From a virus, in IMG/VR virus record IMGVR_UViG_3300032892_000336, positions 1-33,077 of that record: a stretch of 33,077 nucleotides of DNA; one strand, given 5' to 3'. The notes beneath the pieces are model-generated. The model did not search any database. It saw nothing but the letters and a program-made list of their open reading frames with translations, and was not told the origin of the DNA. Shown piece after piece: positions 4,643-33,077 of the stretch (positions are counted from its first letter, which is position 1; each line of letters opens with the position of its first letter). The position numbers were made by a program, and so were the translations under genes.

Positions 4643-5491
4643 CTACGGCAGGCGTTCGGCAGTGACCTCGAGCGTGCCGAGATCAATCGCGAAAGAGCTG
4701 GTGCAGGCTGGCATCACGCTCTCAGGGACGTTGGGGCTTGCGGTGCCGGCAGCAGCAACCGGCATGCCGGCCCAGCTCGGATTGCATTGAGCGTCCGAGG
4801 GGAAGTCGCGGGTGCCCTTATAGGTGCCGAAGTCGAGCGCCCATCGGTAATAGGTGCTGCTCGATGCGCCGGCCGTCGCGATCGCAAAGGTCAGAGAACG
4901 GGACGGGCTGATCAGCTCTTTGATCCGGCCGAGATTGAAAAAGACGATCGCATGCGCCGAATAAAAGAACTGATTGATCGTCTGGAGCTCAGTGTGCGAG
5001 GCGGTGACCTCCCAGATGATCCAATAGATCTGGTCGGCGGGGATGCCGTAGCCCTCCACCCAGCCGTCGATGGCCTGCTGGAGCACGTCCTGATCGGGCA
5101 CGCCGTCGTGATAAGGGACGCGCACACCGCCGAGCGGCGAGCCGCCGCCATAGGCCCAGCCGTTCCAGATCGCCTCGTCGACGACGGTCGCCTCATAGGT
5201 GTGGCTTTCCGAATGCTGGTCGGACCAGGGCGGCCGGCTCCACATGTATTCCTGCGCCAGCATGGCAGACGAAAATGGATTGACGATCGGCGTGGCACCC
5301 GGGAAGCCGATCTGCGCCAGCAGATTGAAGTCAGTGCCGAACGGCAGTCCGCTTAAGAGTGGCGTATCGCTGAAAGCATCACCGCCGGCATAATCGATGC
5401 TCAAGACCAGTGCAGCAATCTTTGCAGCGCCCCAGCCGACCTCGACAATGTTTTGGTGTGGGTCGAGCCGCGTTGGGGGATCAAGCGCCAT
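4643..5491 (-). CDS. Conserved tail-region protein of unknown role (282 aa)
   Basis: A soluble, aromatic-rich protein (motifs such as EYMWSRPPWSDQ and DQIYWIIWEVTASHTE) with no recognised domain. It has no signal peptide and no convincing membrane helix. The ATG at 5491 lies within the end of the upstream 113-residue gene (11-base overlap), so the two are probably translationally coupled. The position after the large hub-like protein gene and before the fibre genes suggests a structural tail-tip component. An alternative is a fibre-assembly factor. The call rests on position only. Confidence 0.5.
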   Translation of the reverse strand: MALDPPTRLDPHQNIVEVGWGAAKIAALVLSIDYAGGDAFSDTPLLSGLPFGTDFNLLAQIGFPGATPIVNPFSSAMLAQEYMWSRPPWSDQHSESHTYEATVVDEAIWNGWAYGGGSPLGGVRVPYHDGVPDQDVLQQAIDGWVEGYGIPADQIYWIIWEVTASHTELQTINQFFYSAHAIVFFNLGRIKELISPSRSLTFAIATAGASSSTYYRWALDFGTYKGTRDFPSDAQCNPSWAGMPVAAAGTASPNVPESVMPACTSSFAIDLGTLEVTAERLP

Positions 5492-23664: not shown

Positions 23665-23889
23665 TTGTCGTTCGTGACGCATCCGCCAATTTTCGAACGC
23701 TCGACGTACAAGATATGACCGGAGAAGCGACACGCCCGTGAAGACAGCCCCCAACAACAAGTCATCCCTGAGACTAGGCTGCAATCCGAACAGCGGAAAC
23801 ACCGCCAACTGTGTTGCGACGGCAACCCCGTATCCAATCACAATGTTCGCAAGGGCCTCCGTCAGGGACATAAGACGGCTCTGCATCAT
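23647..23889 (-). CDS. DUF7220-like small membrane protein (80 aa)
   Basis: The product begins MMQSRLMSLTEALANIVIGYGVAVATQLAVFP, with two hydrophobic segments at about residues 13-32 and 43-58 and a basic C-terminus (RSYLVRRAFENWRMRH), a typical two-pass membrane protein. The S-L-x-E-A-x-A-N-x-x-I-G-Y-x-V-A pattern is the DUF7220 type, which occurs in many alphaproteobacterial phages; I know no function for it. It overlaps the end of the upstream methyltransferase gene by 4 bases (ATGA) and is therefore in that operon, ending at the terminator. Confidence 0.7.
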   Translation of the reverse strand: MMQSRLMSLTEALANIVIGYGVAVATQLAVFPLFGLQPSLRDDLLLGAVFTGVSLLRSYLVRRAFENWRMRHERQSAVGA

Positions 23890-25136
23890 GCGGAAACCCG
23901 CTCAGCCTTGAGCTCATCAAAACCGCGGCCGCTGCCGGCGAGCGTCGCTGCCATGCTCGTATAGTGCCGCCACCGCTCAATGACGACATCGCAATAACGT
24001 GGATCGATTTCTATCGCGAGGCAAGCGCGGCCAATGGTTTCGGCCGCGATCACGGTCGAGCCGGAACCGGCGAACGGCTCGTAGACGACATCGCCCTTCG
24101 CGCTGTTGTTCATGATAGGCCGGCGCATGCACTCGACCGGCTTCTGTGTGCCGTGGACAGTCGATTCGTCTTCTTCGGTTCGGGCGCCGATGGTCCAGAG
24201 AGTTGTCCGGTCCCGCGCTCCTTGCCAGTGCGCATCAGAATCCTTGCGCACCGCGTAGAAGCAGGGCTCGTGCTGCCAATGGTAGTCGCCGCGGCCCAAC
24301 ACGAGACGCGGCTTGGCCCAGATGATCTGCGCTCGAATCTTGAACCCGCATGCCTCCAGGCTCTCCGCAACGATGCGCGATCGAACACCCGAGTGCCACA
24401 CGTATGCGGCGTCGCCGGGGAACAGGGCCCACGCCTCGCGCCAGTCGGCGCGGTCGTCATTGCTGACCTTGCCGGTGCGGGCGGTGACGGAGACGCCCGC
24501 CTCGTTGCGCCAGTTTGGATCGTAGTCGACGCCATAGGGCGGATCGGTGACCATCAGGTGCGGACGAGCGCCATCGAGAAGCCGCTCGACGTCGATCGCC
24601 TGCGTCGCGTCACCGCAGAGCAAGCGATGCGAGCCGAGAACCCAAACGTCTCCGGGCCGTGTCACGGCCTGTGCGGGAGGCTCCGGGGCTTTGTTCTCGT
24701 CCTCGGAAGACGCCTGTCCATCAAGGCCATCAAGCAGCCGATCGAGCTCGTCCTCTCCGAAACCGAGCAATTCGAGATCGACGCCATCTTCCTTCAATCG
24801 GCCCAGTTCGGCAGCGAGCAGCGCCTCGTCCCAGCCGGCATTGAGAGCGATGCGATTGTCGGCAAGGCGGAAGGCTCGAGCCTGCGCGTCAGTTAAATGA
24901 CCGAGCCGAATGACCGGCACGTCCGAAAGCCCGAGGCGTTTTGCCGCGATCAGTCGACCGTGGCCGGCAATCAAGACGCCGCGCTCGTCGACGAGACACG
25001 GCACGTTGAATCCGAACTCTGCAATCGAACCGGCGATCTGGGCGAGCTGTTCGTCGGGGTGGGTCCGCGCGTTCGCCACGTAGGGCAGAAGCCGCTCGAT
25101 CGGCCACTGCTCGACCTGAAGATCGTCAGGCGGCAT
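23886..25136 (-). CDS. ParB-domain DNA methyltransferase (416 aa), second of pair
   Basis: A fusion of an N-terminal ParB/Srx-like domain and a C-terminal DNA methyltransferase of the amino type. Residues about 10-115 contain VANARTHPDEQLAQIAGSI and GVLIAGHGRLIAA (GHGR 58-61), the ParB nuclease-type loop. DPPY at 198-201 is the catalytic motif IV, and EPFAGSGST at 353-361 is motif I with SAM-binding sequence. The order IV-then-I with a long gap fits the beta class of N6-adenine or N4-cytosine enzymes. The product modifies DNA using SAM. The target site cannot be read from sequence. It overlaps the upstream paralogue by 11 bases. Phage protection from host restriction or regulation is likely. 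Confidence 0.85.
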   Translation of the reverse strand: MPPDDLQVEQWPIERLLPYVANARTHPDEQLAQIAGSIAEFGFNVPCLVDERGVLIAGHGRLIAAKRLGLSDVPVIRLGHLTDAQARAFRLADNRIALNAGWDEALLAAELGRLKEDGVDLELLGFGEDELDRLLDGLDGQASSEDENKAPEPPAQAVTRPGDVWVLGSHRLLCGDATQAIDVERLLDGARPHLMVTDPPYGVDYDPNWRNEAGVSVTARTGKVSNDDRADWREAWALFPGDAAYVWHSGVRSRIVAESLEACGFKIRAQIIWAKPRLVLGRGDYHWQHEPCFYAVRKDSDAHWQGARDRTTLWTIGARTEEDESTVHGTQKPVECMRRPIMNNSAKGDVVYEPFAGSGSTVIAAETIGRACLAIEIDPRYCDVVIERWRHYTSMAATLAGSGRGFDELKAERVSA

Positions 25137-26511
25137 TGGCTATTTCGATCCCACGCCCAGCAGCAATCGCTTCGAACGCACGTCCGTTATCCGCGAGCAA
25201 GACAGGCTGATCCGGGAATAGTTTGCGCCAACGCAAGACGGCGACGTCGACATATTCCGGGGCCAATTCGATCGCCCTGACCAGCCGACCGGTGCGCTCG
25301 CCCGCAATGAGACTCGTTCCCGATCCGGCGAAAGGTTCGTAGACGACCTCGCCCTGGTCGCTGTAGGCGCGCATCACGAAGTCAGGCAGCGCTACCGGGA
25401 ACACCGCCGGGTGCTCGGTCTCGATGCCGCGCGCTTTATGCCGCGTGATGCGGATCACGCTGTCCGGAATGCGGGTTTCCTGCACGCCCTGGCCCGCATG
25501 GCTCCATTCCCCGACATGGCCGTCGCGGCTGCGCATGCCGCCATGCGTGTCGTTGATGTGCCCCGCCCATTTGCAAGGCACGATCTTGTTCGGCTTGCGC
25601 GCAACGCGATTGAAGTGGAACAGAAGCTCGAAAGCCGGCGCCAGGCGGCCGTTCCAGTCGCCAGGCAATCCGGGGCCTTGGTCCCACGAGTAAAGCCCGA
25701 AGCGGCGCCAGCCTTGCTCGCGCATCCATTCGAGCCAGCCGTGCCAATAGGGCTGCCATTCGTTGTCCCGGTGGATCAGACCGAGATTGACCAGAACCTG
25801 TGCCTCGTTGGTGACCGGGAGGCCAGCGAACGCGCCCTGCATGAGCGCGTTCCAATCGCCGACGCCGCCGGTCGTGTAGTCACGCTGGTTGCCATAGGGC
25901 GGCGACGTGAACACGAGCGTTGCGCGCTCGCCATCCATCACGCGCGCGACCGCCGCGTCGGCGCTGCTGCCGCAGTGAAGACGGTGGCGACCGATCAGCC
26001 AGAGATCGCCAAGTCGCGTTACCGGTTCGCGTGGTGGAGAGGGCGTCTCGTCAGCGGAGTCGTCGCCACCGTCATCGACCTCCGCCTCGCTGTCGAGCGG
26101 CGCCATGAGCGCATCAAGCTCGGCGTCCGAGAAGCCCGTTAGCGCGAGGTCGAAACCCTCGCCGTTCAGCGCATGCAGTTCGGCCGCGAGCAATTCCTCG
26201 TTCCAGCCAGCGTTGAGCGCGAGCTTGTTGTCAGCAATCACGTAGGCGCGCCGCTGCGCGGGGGTCAGGTGGCCGAGCACCACGACCGGCACCGCGTCGA
26301 GGCCGAGCCGCCGCGCCGCCAGCAGTCGGCCATGGCCGGCGACCACCACGCCCTCGGCGTCGACCAGAATCGGATTGGTCCAGCCGAACTCGACGATCGA
26401 GGCCGCGATCTGCGCGATCTGATCGTCCGCGTGGGTACGGGCATTGCGCGCATACGGGACTAGGCGGTCGAGCGGCCAGTGCTCGACCGTGTCGGGAAGT
26501 CGGGGCGTCAT
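25126..26511 (-). CDS. ParB-domain DNA methyltransferase (461 aa), first of pair
   Basis: Also ParB-like at residues 10-110 (VPYARNARTHADDQIAQIAASI and GVVVAGHGRLLAA; GHGR 59-62) plus a SAM-dependent methyltransferase domain with TSPPY (202-206) as motif IV and EPFAGSGTS (392-400) as motif I. TSPPY is more common in N4-cytosine enzymes than DPPY, so the two paralogues could have different base or site specificities. A linker at about 140-165 (acidic) differs from that of the second copy. It lies upstream of it, overlapping by 11 bases. No restriction endonuclease gene adjoins, so these are orphan, phage-type enzymes. Confidence 0.85.
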   Translation of the reverse strand: MTPRLPDTVEHWPLDRLVPYARNARTHADDQIAQIAASIVEFGWTNPILVDAEGVVVAGHGRLLAARRLGLDAVPVVVLGHLTPAQRRAYVIADNKLALNAGWNEELLAAELHALNGEGFDLALTGFSDAELDALMAPLDSEAEVDDGGDDSADETPSPPREPVTRLGDLWLIGRHRLHCGSSADAAVARVMDGERATLVFTSPPYGNQRDYTTGGVGDWNALMQGAFAGLPVTNEAQVLVNLGLIHRDNEWQPYWHGWLEWMREQGWRRFGLYSWDQGPGLPGDWNGRLAPAFELLFHFNRVARKPNKIVPCKWAGHINDTHGGMRSRDGHVGEWSHAGQGVQETRIPDSVIRITRHKARGIETEHPAVFPVALPDFVMRAYSDQGEVVYEPFAGSGTSLIAGERTGRLVRAIELAPEYVDVAVLRWRKLFPDQPVLLADNGRAFEAIAAGRGIEIANAA

Positions 26512-27605: not shown

Positions 27606-28032
27606 GCGTCCTCTCGATCAGTCGTCGCTTCGACAACTCCTTCGGCAATCGTTGACCGTTGAGCTTCCAGGTGACGACGCAGAGTGCGTAGAGCCAGTGT
27701 TCGTGTGCGGCAGCACGGGCAAGCCCGACCTTCCAGCAAACGGTCTTCCACCGCTCTCCCGACGCACGCAGCCAAACGATCCTCGCATCTGTCGGCTGAA
27801 GCCACTTGAGCCATTCGAGCGTCTCTTCCATCCTGCTGATCGCCTCGGCCGTCGGACGGCTGCGAGTCAATCGAGGCGGCTCTTGACCAACAAGATCAGC
27901 AAACTCGTAAAGGGCCTTCGGCCAGGTATTGAAATAACCCGGCACGCGCACGTCGGGCAGCCGCTTCATCACGTCGGCCGCTTCGACGAAACGCTCCTCC
28001 ACCATCGACTCGGTCCAGCGTGGTTCGGTCAT
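27586..28032 (-). CDS. DUF6362-like phage protein (148 aa)
   Basis: From ATG 28032 the protein starts MTEPRWTESMVEERFVEAADVMKRLPDVR and contains GYFNTWPKAL, RMEETLEWLKWLQPTDARIVWLRA and WKTVCWKVGLARAAAHEHWLYAL, with Trp-rich helix-turn-helix-like spacing. This is the DUF6362 pattern, widespread in alphaproteobacterial phages and often near primase genes. It may be a DNA-binding regulator. ATG overlaps the stop of the upstream gene by one base (TGATG). The role is not established. Confidence 0.7.
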   Translation of the reverse strand: MTEPRWTESMVEERFVEAADVMKRLPDVRVPGYFNTWPKALYEFADLVGQEPPRLTRSRPTAEAISRMEETLEWLKWLQPTDARIVWLRASGERWKTVCWKVGLARAAAHEHWLYALCVVTWKLNGQRLPKELSKRRLIERTRAAVQA

Positions 28033-28382
28033 CACCGGTCCTCCCGAGGCGTTCGGCCGTAGAGCCTTGATCCGAGCTGACGGACCAATTCGCGCTCGGG
28101 CCACGTGAGCCGCTGATCGTCCGCGCTGATCACGCGGATGCCCTGGTCGCGCCAGCCGTACCGCTTGATGGCTTCGGTCTCGTATGGGGGCGGATACTTG
28201 CGTCCGAGCATACGGTTGGCCGGCGCCGGACCGGGGCTGCGAGTGTCGGGTGTGACGGATGTGACGGGTTGTTTCGTTATGTCCCCACGCGCGTGCGCGC
28301 GCGCGCGCGTGACGTTGATATCGAAGTGATCCGTCACATCCGTCACAGGGTTGGTTTTGTTGGATTTCACCGGGTGCTCCAT
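28032..28382 (-). CDS. Small protein downstream of primase, carries the repeat array (116 aa)
   Basis: The N-terminal half is encoded by repeats and is low complexity (VTDVTDHF and VTRARAHARGD, then PVTSVTPDTRSP). The C-terminal half is more like a real domain (RKYPPPYETEAIKRYGWRDQGIRVISADDQRLTWPERELVRQLG, residues about 62-105), similar to small proteins beside primases in other phages. It lies 6 bases after the primase stop and overlaps the DUF6362-like gene. The DNA repeats may be the real function of the 5' half. Confidence 0.55.
   Translation of the reverse strand: MEHPVKSNKTNPVTDVTDHFDINVTRARAHARGDITKQPVTSVTPDTRSPGPAPANRMLGRKYPPPYETEAIKRYGWRDQGIRVISADDQRLTWPERELVRQLGSRLYGRTPREDR
28251..28347. 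repeat. 17-bp inverted repeat of TGTGACGG units around an alternating CG tract; candidate origin
   Basis: TGTGACGGATGTGACGG at 28251-28267 is repeated exactly as its reverse complement at 28331-28347. Each arm has two tandem TGTGACGG units (period 9). A further GTGACG is at 28309-28314. In between, 28286-28311 is 26 bases of strictly alternating purine and pyrimidine (mostly CG), which can form Z-DNA. Iteron-like repeats directly beside a primase-helicase gene, inside a coding region, recall the lambda O-gene origin and other phage origins. Confidence 0.5.
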
Positions 28383-28388
28383 GATCGG

Positions 28389-30698
28389 TTAAAGCTCCAT
28401 CTCGGTGGTGCCTGCGCTGCCCTCGCGTAGCCGCAGCCCTCGGAAGCCCCGCGCTCGACGATCCCGCCGCTGCTCGAAGCCCCGGCTCACGAGGTTCTCG
28501 GAGAGCCATTTGACCGAGGCGATGAACTCTCCGTTGGTTTCCGCCCACACCTTCCAGGCGGCAAAAAGGGCTGCGCTGGTCTCGGTCAGGTTGGGTCCGC
28601 GTTCGCACCTTTCGTCGAGCCATCGGCCGAGCGAGTCCTCGGCCTCGAAGTATTCCTCGGTCGCCGCTGCAACCGCGGCTGGCGGCTTGAGGCCGATGCG
28701 CTGCCACTCGCGGCATCCATCGACCGCCCAGGCCAGGATGCCGTCACGCTCGGCCAGCAGCTTTTCCGGCAGCTTCTGATCCCGCTGACTCGGCGGAATA
28801 GTCACGGTGAAGGGGATCAGGTGGAGCCGGCGCCGCATCGCCTCGTCGACGTTGCGAATGGCCGGCTTGTGGTTGCCCGCGATGATGAGCTTGAACTGCG
28901 GGATGAACTCAAAGAAGTCCTGCCGCATGAACCGGGCGGTGATCTTGTCGCCGCCGGTCAGCGTCTTGAGCTTGCTCTCCGCCCAGCGCCGCCCCTGCTC
29001 GGTCTCGGTGGCCGTGACGAGGCGCGCACCGCGCAATCCCGCCATGTCGGTCGGGTGCCGTTCGCCCATTGTCGCCATGAACATGTCCATGGGGGCGACG
29101 GTCGCGTAATCCCCGAGTATCCCGGAGACGGTCGTGACGAACACGGACTTGCCGTTGGCGCCCGTGCCATACAGAAAGAACAGCGCGTGCTCGCTGGTGA
29201 CGCCGGTGAGGCAGTAGCCCACGACGCGTTGAAGGTAGGCTTCGAGCTCGGCGTCGCCGCGTGTGACGGTGCCCAGGAAATCCTGCCAGGCCGGACATTC
29301 GCCGCGTGGCGTGGCGGTGGCGATCTTCGTGTTGGCGTCTGTCCGCCTGTGCGGAACGAGTATCCCCGTCCTGAGATCGACCATTCCTCCGAGCGTGTTG
29401 AGCGACCACAGATCGGCATCCCAGATGTCGGTCGAAGCGGCGTGGCTTCGATCGGCACGCGCCAGCCGCTCTATCGCCGCCACCGTGCCGGCGGATGCGA
29501 TCTTGGCGCGGAGCTTGGCATTGCTGCAGGCAGCAGCCGCATCTCGGCACACGATGCGGGCAAGGTCGTAGACCTTCAGCGTGTTTTCGCGTTGCCAGTG
29601 GGTGCCGGTCCAGACGAGCCATTGGCCCCAAGCGGCCACATAGTGCCAATCCTCGCCGTGGTGCCGCGTGAACTGGAGCGCGAGCGCATCCTCGGTGAAT
29701 TCCGCCGCGCCGCCGCCCGCCTTGTCTCTGCGCTCGCCGTCGCGCTGCCAGAGGCGCTTAGCCTCATGCCGAAGGCGGTCCATCGGCCACGGCGGAACGA
29801 TGCAGGCGTCGTTATAGGAGACGATCTCCTCCCATGCCTGCTCGCGAGAGACGTGCCCCTCGCCGCAGCGCCGAATCCAGTAGCCGATGACGCGGCTCAG
29901 GGCGTCGAAGCGCGTGATGCCGTCGATGCCTCCTTCATGGACTCGCTTCGCAAACAGCTTAGCGGTGGGTTCCTTGGTCGTACCGCCCGCCGGCGCTATA
30001 GGGACCGTGCCACCCGCGATGGCGGGCAGTGCCTCGACCTTCTCGGCGAGCTCGCTGAGATCGTATTCCACGGTTCGTTGGGCCCGGACGGTGACCAGAC
30101 GCTCGACGCCGCCCTTGCGATAGATCGAGCCTACGACCCGGATCGGTTGATGGGCGGAACCGAACGACGGATCGCCTCCAACCTTGGCCGCGATTAATGC
30201 CCGCAGCTTGCAGACCGCCGCCACGTCGGTGCCGAGGGCGGGCTCGGTGAGCTTCCAATAGAGGTGCAGCCGTTCTTGCCCCTCCTCTGTGGTCCCTCCC
30301 GAGATGACCTCGAGGGAGGGCGCCCCGAGATGCTCGGCAAGATGATCGCGCTTGGCCCGAACATCGCCGTGGTCGAGATCGACCAGCACGGTCTGCGTCG
30401 CGACCACGTCATCGGCCTTGGCCTTGCCCTGCCCGGACGTCGTGCCGGGGACCACATAAAGGGCAAGTCCGCTCGACGCCGCGCGCTGGGCCTCGCTCGT
30501 GATGCTACGCGCGAGATTCGCATCGGCTTGAAAAAATGGCGTGCGGGGGACCTGGCTGGCGTTTCCTTTTTCGGGGAACTCCCTGACCGCCACCCAGCCC
30601 TCGCAGTACTCAAACAAGACCTTCGAAAAGGTCTCGATCAGCGCGGCGTCGGGCGCAACCGGATTGGGGGCACCATCTCCCTCGATCATCACCGTCAT
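28389..30698 (-). CDS. Primase-helicase of the P4 / D5 type (769 aa)
   Basis: This is the replication initiator-primase-helicase. The N-terminal third resembles an archaeo-eukaryotic-type primase: VDLDHGD (106-112) holds the acidic pair, an R-L-H-L-Y-W motif (143-148) holds the His, and PIRVVGSIY is at 185-193. The C-terminal half is a superfamily 3 D5-like helicase: GTGANGKS (511-518) is Walker A, AGNHKP (607-612) is the sensor, and AMRRRLHLIPF (620-630) carries the Arg finger. The middle (about 340-490) is the D5_N region with WLVWTGTHW. The length fits phage P4-type proteins. It follows the helix-turn-helix gene by 15 bases and precedes the repeat-bearing gene. A Glu after Walker B was not pinned down. 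Confidence 0.85.
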   Translation of the reverse strand: MTVMIEGDGAPNPVAPDAALIETFSKVLFEYCEGWVAVREFPEKGNASQVPRTPFFQADANLARSITSEAQRAASSGLALYVVPGTTSGQGKAKADDVVATQTVLVDLDHGDVRAKRDHLAEHLGAPSLEVISGGTTEEGQERLHLYWKLTEPALGTDVAAVCKLRALIAAKVGGDPSFGSAHQPIRVVGSIYRKGGVERLVTVRAQRTVEYDLSELAEKVEALPAIAGGTVPIAPAGGTTKEPTAKLFAKRVHEGGIDGITRFDALSRVIGYWIRRCGEGHVSREQAWEEIVSYNDACIVPPWPMDRLRHEAKRLWQRDGERRDKAGGGAAEFTEDALALQFTRHHGEDWHYVAAWGQWLVWTGTHWQRENTLKVYDLARIVCRDAAAACSNAKLRAKIASAGTVAAIERLARADRSHAASTDIWDADLWSLNTLGGMVDLRTGILVPHRRTDANTKIATATPRGECPAWQDFLGTVTRGDAELEAYLQRVVGYCLTGVTSEHALFFLYGTGANGKSVFVTTVSGILGDYATVAPMDMFMATMGERHPTDMAGLRGARLVTATETEQGRRWAESKLKTLTGGDKITARFMRQDFFEFIPQFKLIIAGNHKPAIRNVDEAMRRRLHLIPFTVTIPPSQRDQKLPEKLLAERDGILAWAVDGCREWQRIGLKPPAAVAAATEEYFEAEDSLGRWLDERCERGPNLTETSAALFAAWKVWAETNGEFIASVKWLSENLVSRGFEQRRDRRARGFRGLRLREGSAGTTEMEL

Positions 30699-31121: not shown

Positions 31122-33077
31122 TCAACGTCTCTCGGATGGATTTGTGACAGGCTGCGCCGGGCTCTGTGACATTACGGTGCTTTCGATCTCTCCGATCGCC
31201 ACGAATCGGATGTACGGATTCAGCCGATAGCCCTGACGCGCTTTATTTTCGATGAGCAAATGTTTGGGTGGGTCCTGGCCGAATTTCCGCTTGTAGGCAT
31301 CGCGTACAGCGGTACGGCAACGAGTCACCCGCTGACGAACTGTCGGCTCATCGATTTGAAGGCCTTGCGCGAGCTTGTGGGACGTCACGTACTGATAATT
31401 CTCGGGGCTACGGCCATCCGACAGGTCTCGCTGATAAGCGCCGTGCAGTTCACGAACCAACCTGCTGTCGGCATCTCCTAGCCGAAGCAAATCACGGACA
31501 ACGATCTGTTTGGTCTTTGCATCAATTGCCACCTGCAGACCGTCGACATCTGCTTTCTTGGTCGCAGCATTTGCGCGCTCGGCCTCGGCTTCGTCGACCC
31601 AGGTTTGTAATGAATCGACATGCTTGCCCATCATTGCAAGAACCGAGGCTCCGCCTGTCGATACGGTCATCACCAGCAGAGATGATGGCGGCAGCGTTTT
31701 GCTGACAAGCTCCGAACTATGGGCTTCGACCGCCGCCTTGAGCACGTCCGCAATCCCTTGAGCGTGTCGTTGGTGGAGGTCGAGAACTCGGCGCCCCACC
31801 TCGTCAGGGCTCTGAGACGGAAAGCATTTGAGGACGCGCGCAGTTTCACCACCGAACCGACCGAAGAATGCCAGGTCGCTTGATTCGCGAAGCTCCAGCG
31901 CGGTCCTTGCGTAAGACTCCGCCATAGTTTGGTCGTCCGGTTCGTCGCGCGGGCCGGTAAGCAACTCAACCTTGTACATCTCAACGGGATCATGTTCACC
32001 GGCATTAGCGGCAAGGACAGCAAAGCGGCGATCGATGCACTGCGAACAGCAACCACAATGGGTATGCAGCTTGGTAATGTTGTATACCCGCGTGCAGCTG
32101 ACCGTGTGGCGGATCAGCTCTCCACAACCGCGATCCACGATTGATCGAACGACGTCTCGCTTGGTCTTCCAAATGAAGGGGTTGTCGACGTCGATCGCCT
32201 TGCCCACGGCAGCACTGAAAAATTCCCGAAAGTGGTTCAAGACCAATGGGTGGGTAGTGCGCGTTGCGCGGGCGCCGACGACCTGCTCGGAGGTCGGCAA
32301 ATTGATACTCACGACGCCGTTCTCGAAGAATCGAACCCTGTTGTTCCCGAGTAGACGGGCAACAACACAAGCGAGTGCGGCGTAAAGAAACGATCGTGAT
32401 CGCTGCGTAAATTCTTGCACCCGAAGAGTCTGTTGCGTGGTCGCGAGAACCGGCACGTGCATGACCTTCTGCGGAAAGCGCGCAACGAGGTCCGTAACGA
32501 GATGCTTCTGGTGGTCATACATCTTCGGCGATGAGCGGTGGCTCACGAGCGCGACACGTTTCCCATTTGTCGCCAGTTCCTCGATAGCCCCGCTGAGCGA
32601 GTCTAGCCCGCCAGAAAACAGAACGACTTCGTCCGCCTTAAATGTCGCGCCACCGTCGGCGTCGCTGAATTCCAAGTAGTCCTGAATTGGAACCGGATTA
32701 GTCACCTTCTCAAACTCGAATTCGTAATCGTCTTCCGACAGAAACGAGAGCGTCGAGCAAAGCGATTCCAAGACGTTGCGACGGTTCCAATGATCCGGAT
32801 TTCTCACTGGGATGACGAATCGAAAGCTACGGCGCCAATCCGCACCCATTCCAACCTGCGCTGGACCGCCTCGGCTTATCGCTTGGTCGGCACAGTAGAC
32901 GTATGTGGCAATTTCGATGAGGTCGACGAGCAAGCCAGGAACATTCCTGACCATTTTCTTGCTGATGTCTTCCAGTTTGAGTGTGATGTTCTGCGCCCGA
33001 CCGCTCAGGGCAAGCCTCAGCGTCGAATCACCTCCAGACCGCTTTGCTCCGCCACAGAGGACGAGACGCTCAAGCAT
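31122..33077 (-). CDS. QueC/QatC-like PP-loop ATPase with C-terminal winged-helix domain (at least 651 aa)
   Basis: The first 120 residues have the 'VDLIEIATYVYCADQAISRG' and 'IPVRNPDHWN' patterns typical of QatC and related defence proteins. LFSGGLDSLSG (residues about 153-163) is the PP-loop, and residues C328, C341, C344 and C347 (CGCCSQCIDRR) correspond to the zinc site of QueC, the preQ0 synthase. Residues about 560-625 (YVTSHKLAQGLQI, RQRVTRCRTAVRDAY, then ENKARQGYRL) resemble an OmpR/PhoB-type winged helix. QatC is one part of the four-gene Qat anti-phage system; the other three members are not in this window and could lie upstream on the minus strand, beyond position 33077. The ATG is at the window edge, so the true start may be further out. 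Confidence 0.7.
   Translation of the reverse strand: MLERLVLCGGAKRSGGDSTLRLALSGRAQNITLKLEDISKKMVRNVPGLLVDLIEIATYVYCADQAISRGGPAQVGMGADWRRSFRFVIPVRNPDHWNRRNVLESLCSTLSFLSEDDYEFEFEKVTNPVPIQDYLEFSDADGGATFKADEVVLFSGGLDSLSGAIEELATNGKRVALVSHRSSPKMYDHQKHLVTDLVARFPQKVMHVPVLATTQQTLRVQEFTQRSRSFLYAALACVVARLLGNNRVRFFENGVVSINLPTSEQVVGARATRTTHPLVLNHFREFFSAAVGKAIDVDNPFIWKTKRDVVRSIVDRGCGELIRHTVSCTRVYNITKLHTHCGCCSQCIDRRFAVLAANAGEHDPVEMYKVELLTGPRDEPDDQTMAESYARTALELRESSDLAFFGRFGGETARVLKCFPSQSPDEVGRRVLDLHQRHAQGIADVLKAAVEAHSSELVSKTLPPSSLLVMTVSTGGASVLAMMGKHVDSLQTWVDEAEAERANAATKKADVDGLQVAIDAKTKQIVVRDLLRLGDADSRLVRELHGAYQRDLSDGRSPENYQYVTSHKLAQGLQIDEPTVRQRVTRCRTAVRDAYKRKFGQDPPKHLLIENKARQGYRLNPYIRFVAIGEIESTVMSQSPAQPVTNPSERR

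Follow-up and report, generated by a model that had tools for sequence, protein, structure and literature searches.

In pRN1, a 100-bp stem-loop on the 3′ side of orf904 is required for replication and is sufficient to restore replication of a construct lacking it; the symmetry of the stem is needed, and the stem-loop was described as being without iterons (PMC4234260). The origins of SaPIs are found immediately downstream of rep, whose product binds them through its C-terminal domain, and the C-terminal domain of Cch2, a D5_N relative from SCCmec, binds repeats 3′ of its own gene (PMC7581432). In P4, the crr region is placed by the annotation 46 nt 3′ of the gene for the alpha primase-helicase and is needed in cis, with the annotated ori elsewhere. 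SaPI-type origins have an AT-rich region between two sets of iterons.

Layout of the element and its likeness to known origins

The DNA analysed here (the window) comprises 33,077 nt of the viral record IMGVR_UViG_3300032892_000336 and encodes head, tail, methyltransferase and replication functions. An element close to the 3′ end of its primase-helicase gene is grouped by anatomy with P4 crr and the SaPI and pRN1 origins, all found 3′ of D5-family primase-helicase genes, and is almost certainly a docking site, as yet putative, of the phage's own primase-helicase. The features referred to below are as follows.

28032–28382, minus strand: small ORF, 116 aa, running through the element; N-terminal half repeat-encoded, C-terminal half corresponding to phrog_19772
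28251–28267, plus strand: one arm; iteron units GTGACGG at 28252–28258 and 28261–28267, 9-nt period
28268–28330, no strand assigned: spacer, 63 nt between the inner units
28286–28311, no strand assigned: alternating purine-pyrimidine tract, 26 nt, mostly CG, Z-DNA-prone, where an AT-rich unwinding region would be expected
28309–28314, plus strand: GTGACG, a 'fifth copy' at the tract border, not a conserved iteron
28331–28347, minus strand: other arm, closest to the primase stop; inverted iteron units at 28331–28337 and 28340–28346
28389–30698, minus strand: D5_N/DUF5906 (P4-type) primase-helicase gene, proposed initiator (profile matches and SaPI5-like model)
28419–28556, minus strand: C-terminal winged-helix domain, codons 715–760 (AlphaFold model, pLDDT 90; helix 729–738 plus wing)
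28509–28511, minus strand: K730 codon; the residue tracks iteron base 7

Each arm (TGTGACGGATGTGACGG at 28251–28267, CCGTCACATCCGTCACA at 28331–28347) consists of two 9-nt units (GTGACGGAT); on the primase strand, two units GTGACGGAT-GTGACGG are followed by the 63-nt spacer and by the inverted copies CCGTCAC-ATCCGTCAC, and about 41 nt separate the primase stop codon from the outer arm. A first-pass annotation, made from the letters of the DNA, had described a perfect 17-bp inverted repeat built of tandem units; its coordinates were confirmed, and no other perfect inverted repeat in the window reaches its length (loop up to 100; 17 bp, whereas 60 shuffles gave at most 13). The motif TGACGNNNNTGACG has no other occurrence in the window. 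Five copies of the unit had been claimed and we count four; the supposed fifth is present, although not as a conserved unit, because relatives carry GTTAC or GTCAC at that position. The '26-base alternating CG tract' of the same annotation is indeed alternating and exactly 26 nt long, but it is not pure CG, containing CA and TG steps. The GC content of the spacer is 60% with the tract included and 41% outside it, against 63% for the whole window.

The window element shares with the P4/SaPI/pRN1 type its position directly downstream of an initiator helicase gene and its multiple short direct and inverted iterons; profile matches and the model also place an SF3/D5 helicase with a C-terminal winged-helix domain in the proposed initiator. 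The AT-rich region between iteron sets of SaPI-type origins was not found, the corresponding spacer being the GC-rich one with the CG tract. Like the window element, the SaPI rep/ori and Cch2 sites have iterons just downstream of a D5-type initiator helicase, and their three 5-nt iterons in 23 bp are arithmetically compatible with a 9-nt period; unlike it, they have another iteron sequence, and Cch2 binding depends on direct repeats only. We know of no GC alternating spacer in SaPI/Cch2-type origins. The SaPI5 protein is a close fold match of the window primase-helicase, being among the nearest solved relatives of the model over its full length (Z 30.3, whole C-terminal half).

P4 crr resembles the element in its distance from the primase-helicase gene and in its type-1 repeats, two of them 9 nt apart and with inverted copies on the far side of a spacer; it differs in its GGTGAACA-like unit, its two 120-bp copies, its distant ori and its lack of an alternating CG tract, and neither the GGTGAACA unit nor the layout of two 120-bp copies was found in the window element. 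The pRN1 family of Sulfolobus has an element of about 100 bp, 52–82 nt 3′ of a P4-family primase-helicase gene whose product carries a C-terminal winged-helix domain; the inverted arms measure about 20 nt, and in pRN1 and pRN2 the spacer is of similar size (57–58). The family departs from the window in its T/A-rich spacer without an alternating CG tract and in its archaeal host. The arms of pRN1 (TGTCCATAGTGTCC), pHEN7 (GTCACCACTGTCAC) and pRN2 (GGACCGATAGGAC) contain direct units with 9-nt spacing (stem-loop loci L605 at 5084–5183, L607 and L609), of which the published description makes no mention. This suggests that the pRN1 'stem-loop' origin may really be an iteron array.

Conservation of the repeats among relatives

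Relatives were collected by primase sequence alone. In nearly every related D5/P4-type primase-helicase gene the element lies 15–45 nt (5–95% range) 3′ of the stop codon, and an inverted repeat scoring at least 12 was found 3′ of the stop in 59% of 27 non-redundant primase-first relatives, compared with 1.7% for random windows and 0.7% for shuffles. The repeat pattern, scanned for in viral and genome contigs, led repeatedly to the 3′ side of such primases, in Proteobacteria, Actinobacteria, Clostridia and others, in addition to unrelated low-complexity matches. A unit period of 9 stands out in the autocorrelation (0.545 versus about 0.2–0.26 for other periods), a value inflated by the loci found through the pattern; period 9 recurs in the primase-first mycobacteriophage group. 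Comparison with relatives, which the first-pass annotation had proposed as a check, showed that the number, orientation and spacing of the repeats are conserved, and its idea of origin-type iterons adjoining a primase accords with the pattern that the relatives appear to share. The spacer measures 61–63 nt in 73 of 92 relatives despite its variable sequence. Within an element, direct copies are 91% and inverted copies 94% identical, while units differ between phages (GTGACGG, CTGACGC, CTGACGG, CTGACAG, CTGTCGG, GTGAAGG and more); direct and inverted copies thus evidently change in concert from phage to phage. Identical inverted TGACGGTTGTGACG repeat pairs, about 105–112 nt apart, were also seen in three contigs in which no primase was detected (L116 1453–1647, L163 18–220 and L185 2871–3065).

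The window ORF is open across the element, and it might be supposed that the repeats arose by chance or encode part of the small protein. The odds of this are negligible: the same layout stands directly 3′ of the primase stop in relatives whether the small gene is present or absent, and reading frame, start and downstream gene (the phrog_19772 gene, a RuvC-like gene or others) differ while the DNA is kept. In approximately half of the window family a single frame with a start codon runs through the arms; elsewhere there is another frame or no gene. Moreover, the sole significant profile match of the small ORF, to phrog_19772, covers residues 58–112 only, which lie beyond the element. By these comparisons the element is a DNA-level feature and not a protein feature, which bears out the earlier suggestion that the encoded peptide is dictated by the DNA repeat. 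At loci L011–L021, among others, the element shares its reading frame with a downstream RuvC-like gene, whose product would gain a repeat-encoded N-terminal extension VTDVTD...VTSVT.

Several types of resolvase or nuclease gene (polynucleotidyltransferase, ERCC4, VRR-NUC, RusA) often follow the element (L427, L428, L429 and L431). The products of such junction-resolvase-type genes might cut the element as a cruciform or resolution site, which would fit the many relatives in which a RuvC-like, RusA, ERCC4 or VRR-NUC nuclease is encoded next, and also a weak additional self-complementarity of the tract and inner flanks. We consider this highly improbable: in the window and at other loci no such gene comes immediately after the element, the identity of the unit follows the primase and not the resolvase, and a cruciform does not need direct repeats.

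Matching of iteron bases and winged-helix residues

The AlphaFold model of residues 335–769 (pLDDT 90) has a C-terminal winged-helix domain with its wing at 742–757, and residues 730 and 734 fall in the predicted recognition helix 729–738. In 92 relatives, iteron base 7 (G/C, after TGACG) tracks primase residue 730 (K/R), which is the best of about 430 columns for that base (nMI 0.64, the next 0.34; Fisher 2e-19; about 6:0 independent pairs, p 0.03). Residue 730 and base 7 each change 13 times on a tree built without the winged-helix domain, and the rule is broken in 4 of 88 relatives. Residue 734 tracks unit base 1, yet clade-linked columns score nearly as high, and this match is therefore not relied on.

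Mycobacteriophages provide a case of residue/base matching that is independent of the window family. Across 26 cluster-K-like mycobacteriophages, unit base 1 (A/G) follows from residue 847 (N/H) with no exceptions, and for unit base 3 the best column is residue 851, with 6:0 independent pairs for each of the two residues. Among JAWS-related mycobacteriophages the unit switches among AGCAC, GGCAC, AGAAC and AGTAC, and residues 845–851 follow, residue 847 being H with base G and N with base A. Taken with the window family, this strongly supports the C-terminal winged-helix domain as the predicted reader of the iterons. The first-pass annotation had proposed testing the N-terminus of the primase-helicase for binding; it is instead the C-terminal domain, through residue 730, that tracks the repeats. 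At the mycobacteriophage loci (L571–L604) the element lies 130–290 nt 3′ of the primase, and the iteron sequence switches repeatedly between close relatives (7 and 8 tree changes at two positions), perhaps reflecting avoidance of cross-talk between phages in one host.

The single-stranded DNA fold of the element is strong (DNA parameters; z = -6.2 versus dinucleotide shuffles), as would be expected of an RNA hairpin in the primase transcript acting as a terminator or regulatory stem. Mismatches in the window family lean slightly in the same direction, with G.T exceeding A.C in distinct contexts (13 versus 7), but over 80 diverse elements the wobble is without strand bias (43 G.T, 37 A.C). Covariation is as good among direct copies as among inverted ones, a terminator scan was negative at the element, no Rfam family reached its gathering score, and a hairpin leaves the tracking between winged-helix residues and units unexplained; we regard this reading as very unlikely.

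A proposed origin and its alternating spacer

From the anatomy, position, conservation and matched change of bases and residues, we infer, with a probability of roughly 0.8, that the element is an iteron-type phage replication origin to which the primase-helicase binds by its C-terminal domain and not by its N-terminus; binding, loading of two rings, opening of the spacer and origin activity would each belong to this proposal. The D5/P4-type primase-helicase, whose gene stands just upstream, would use its C-terminal winged-helix domain to bind the four 9-nt units, two direct and two inverted around the 63-bp spacer, in duplex form. At the inverted arms two helicase assemblies would be loaded face to face, and these would open the spacer; there the alternating tract may aid strand separation or adopt an unusual form. 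The helicases would then travel apart while the primase primes. GC and AT skew of the window show no switch at the element.

If the protein bound the iterons as an operator or as a copy-control site, the coevolution would look the same. The element might accordingly be a cis control site, through which the primase-helicase regulates its own operon or the copy number by binding to the iterons while replication starts elsewhere; P4 crr, with the same anatomy, is required in cis yet separate from the annotated ori, and in the window the element stands between two genes of one operon. We think this unlikely, as the 33-kb window contains no second iteron array with the unit of the element, a search for promoter-like sites at the element gave none, and the pRN1 stem-loop alone restores replication (PMC4234260). 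Under the origin reading, the origins of hundreds of uncharacterised phages with P4/D5-type primase-helicases would have a simple anatomy, namely 9-nt units in two pairs, inverted with respect to each other and close behind the 3′ end of the gene.

What is new here is an alternating, GC-rich spacer in which nearly all changes are transitions, together with a readable recognition code, the residue-to-base rules of which are open to checking by single substitutions. The spacer raises the question of how an origin lacking AT-rich DNA opens. The alternating run has a median length of 21 nt in the window family; substitutions in the tract comprise 35 transitions and 3 transversions, compared with 81 and 79 in the flanks, a contrast subject to a mild ascertainment bias since the tract is defined by alternation. 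Transitions keep the alternation of the tract. Alternating runs are strongly enriched in the window family (92% at p<0.01) and in the phi105 group, and moderately so in other families; the Lactobacillus group shows weak enrichment and the mycobacteriophage group none, so that the tract is not universal. Low-GC phages such as phi105 have an alternating AT tract instead. Against alternation-preserving shuffles, the hairpin of the tract gives a weak signal only (mean z -0.5).

Tentatively, and with the balance of probability against it, the opening region may, across a large and mostly proteobacterial set of phages, be a strictly alternating rather than AT-rich tract, selected for alternation itself (Z-DNA or a related form under supercoiling) and held at a fixed distance between two inverted iteron pairs; this would constitute a new kind of opening element.

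Elsewhere in the window, two adjacent minus-strand genes (23886–25136 and 25126–26511) each encode a ParB-type N-terminal domain and a DNA methyltransferase domain, and the gene at 31122–33077 (minus strand), at the contig end, encodes a protein of 651 aa, the middle of which gives a weak QueC-like match.
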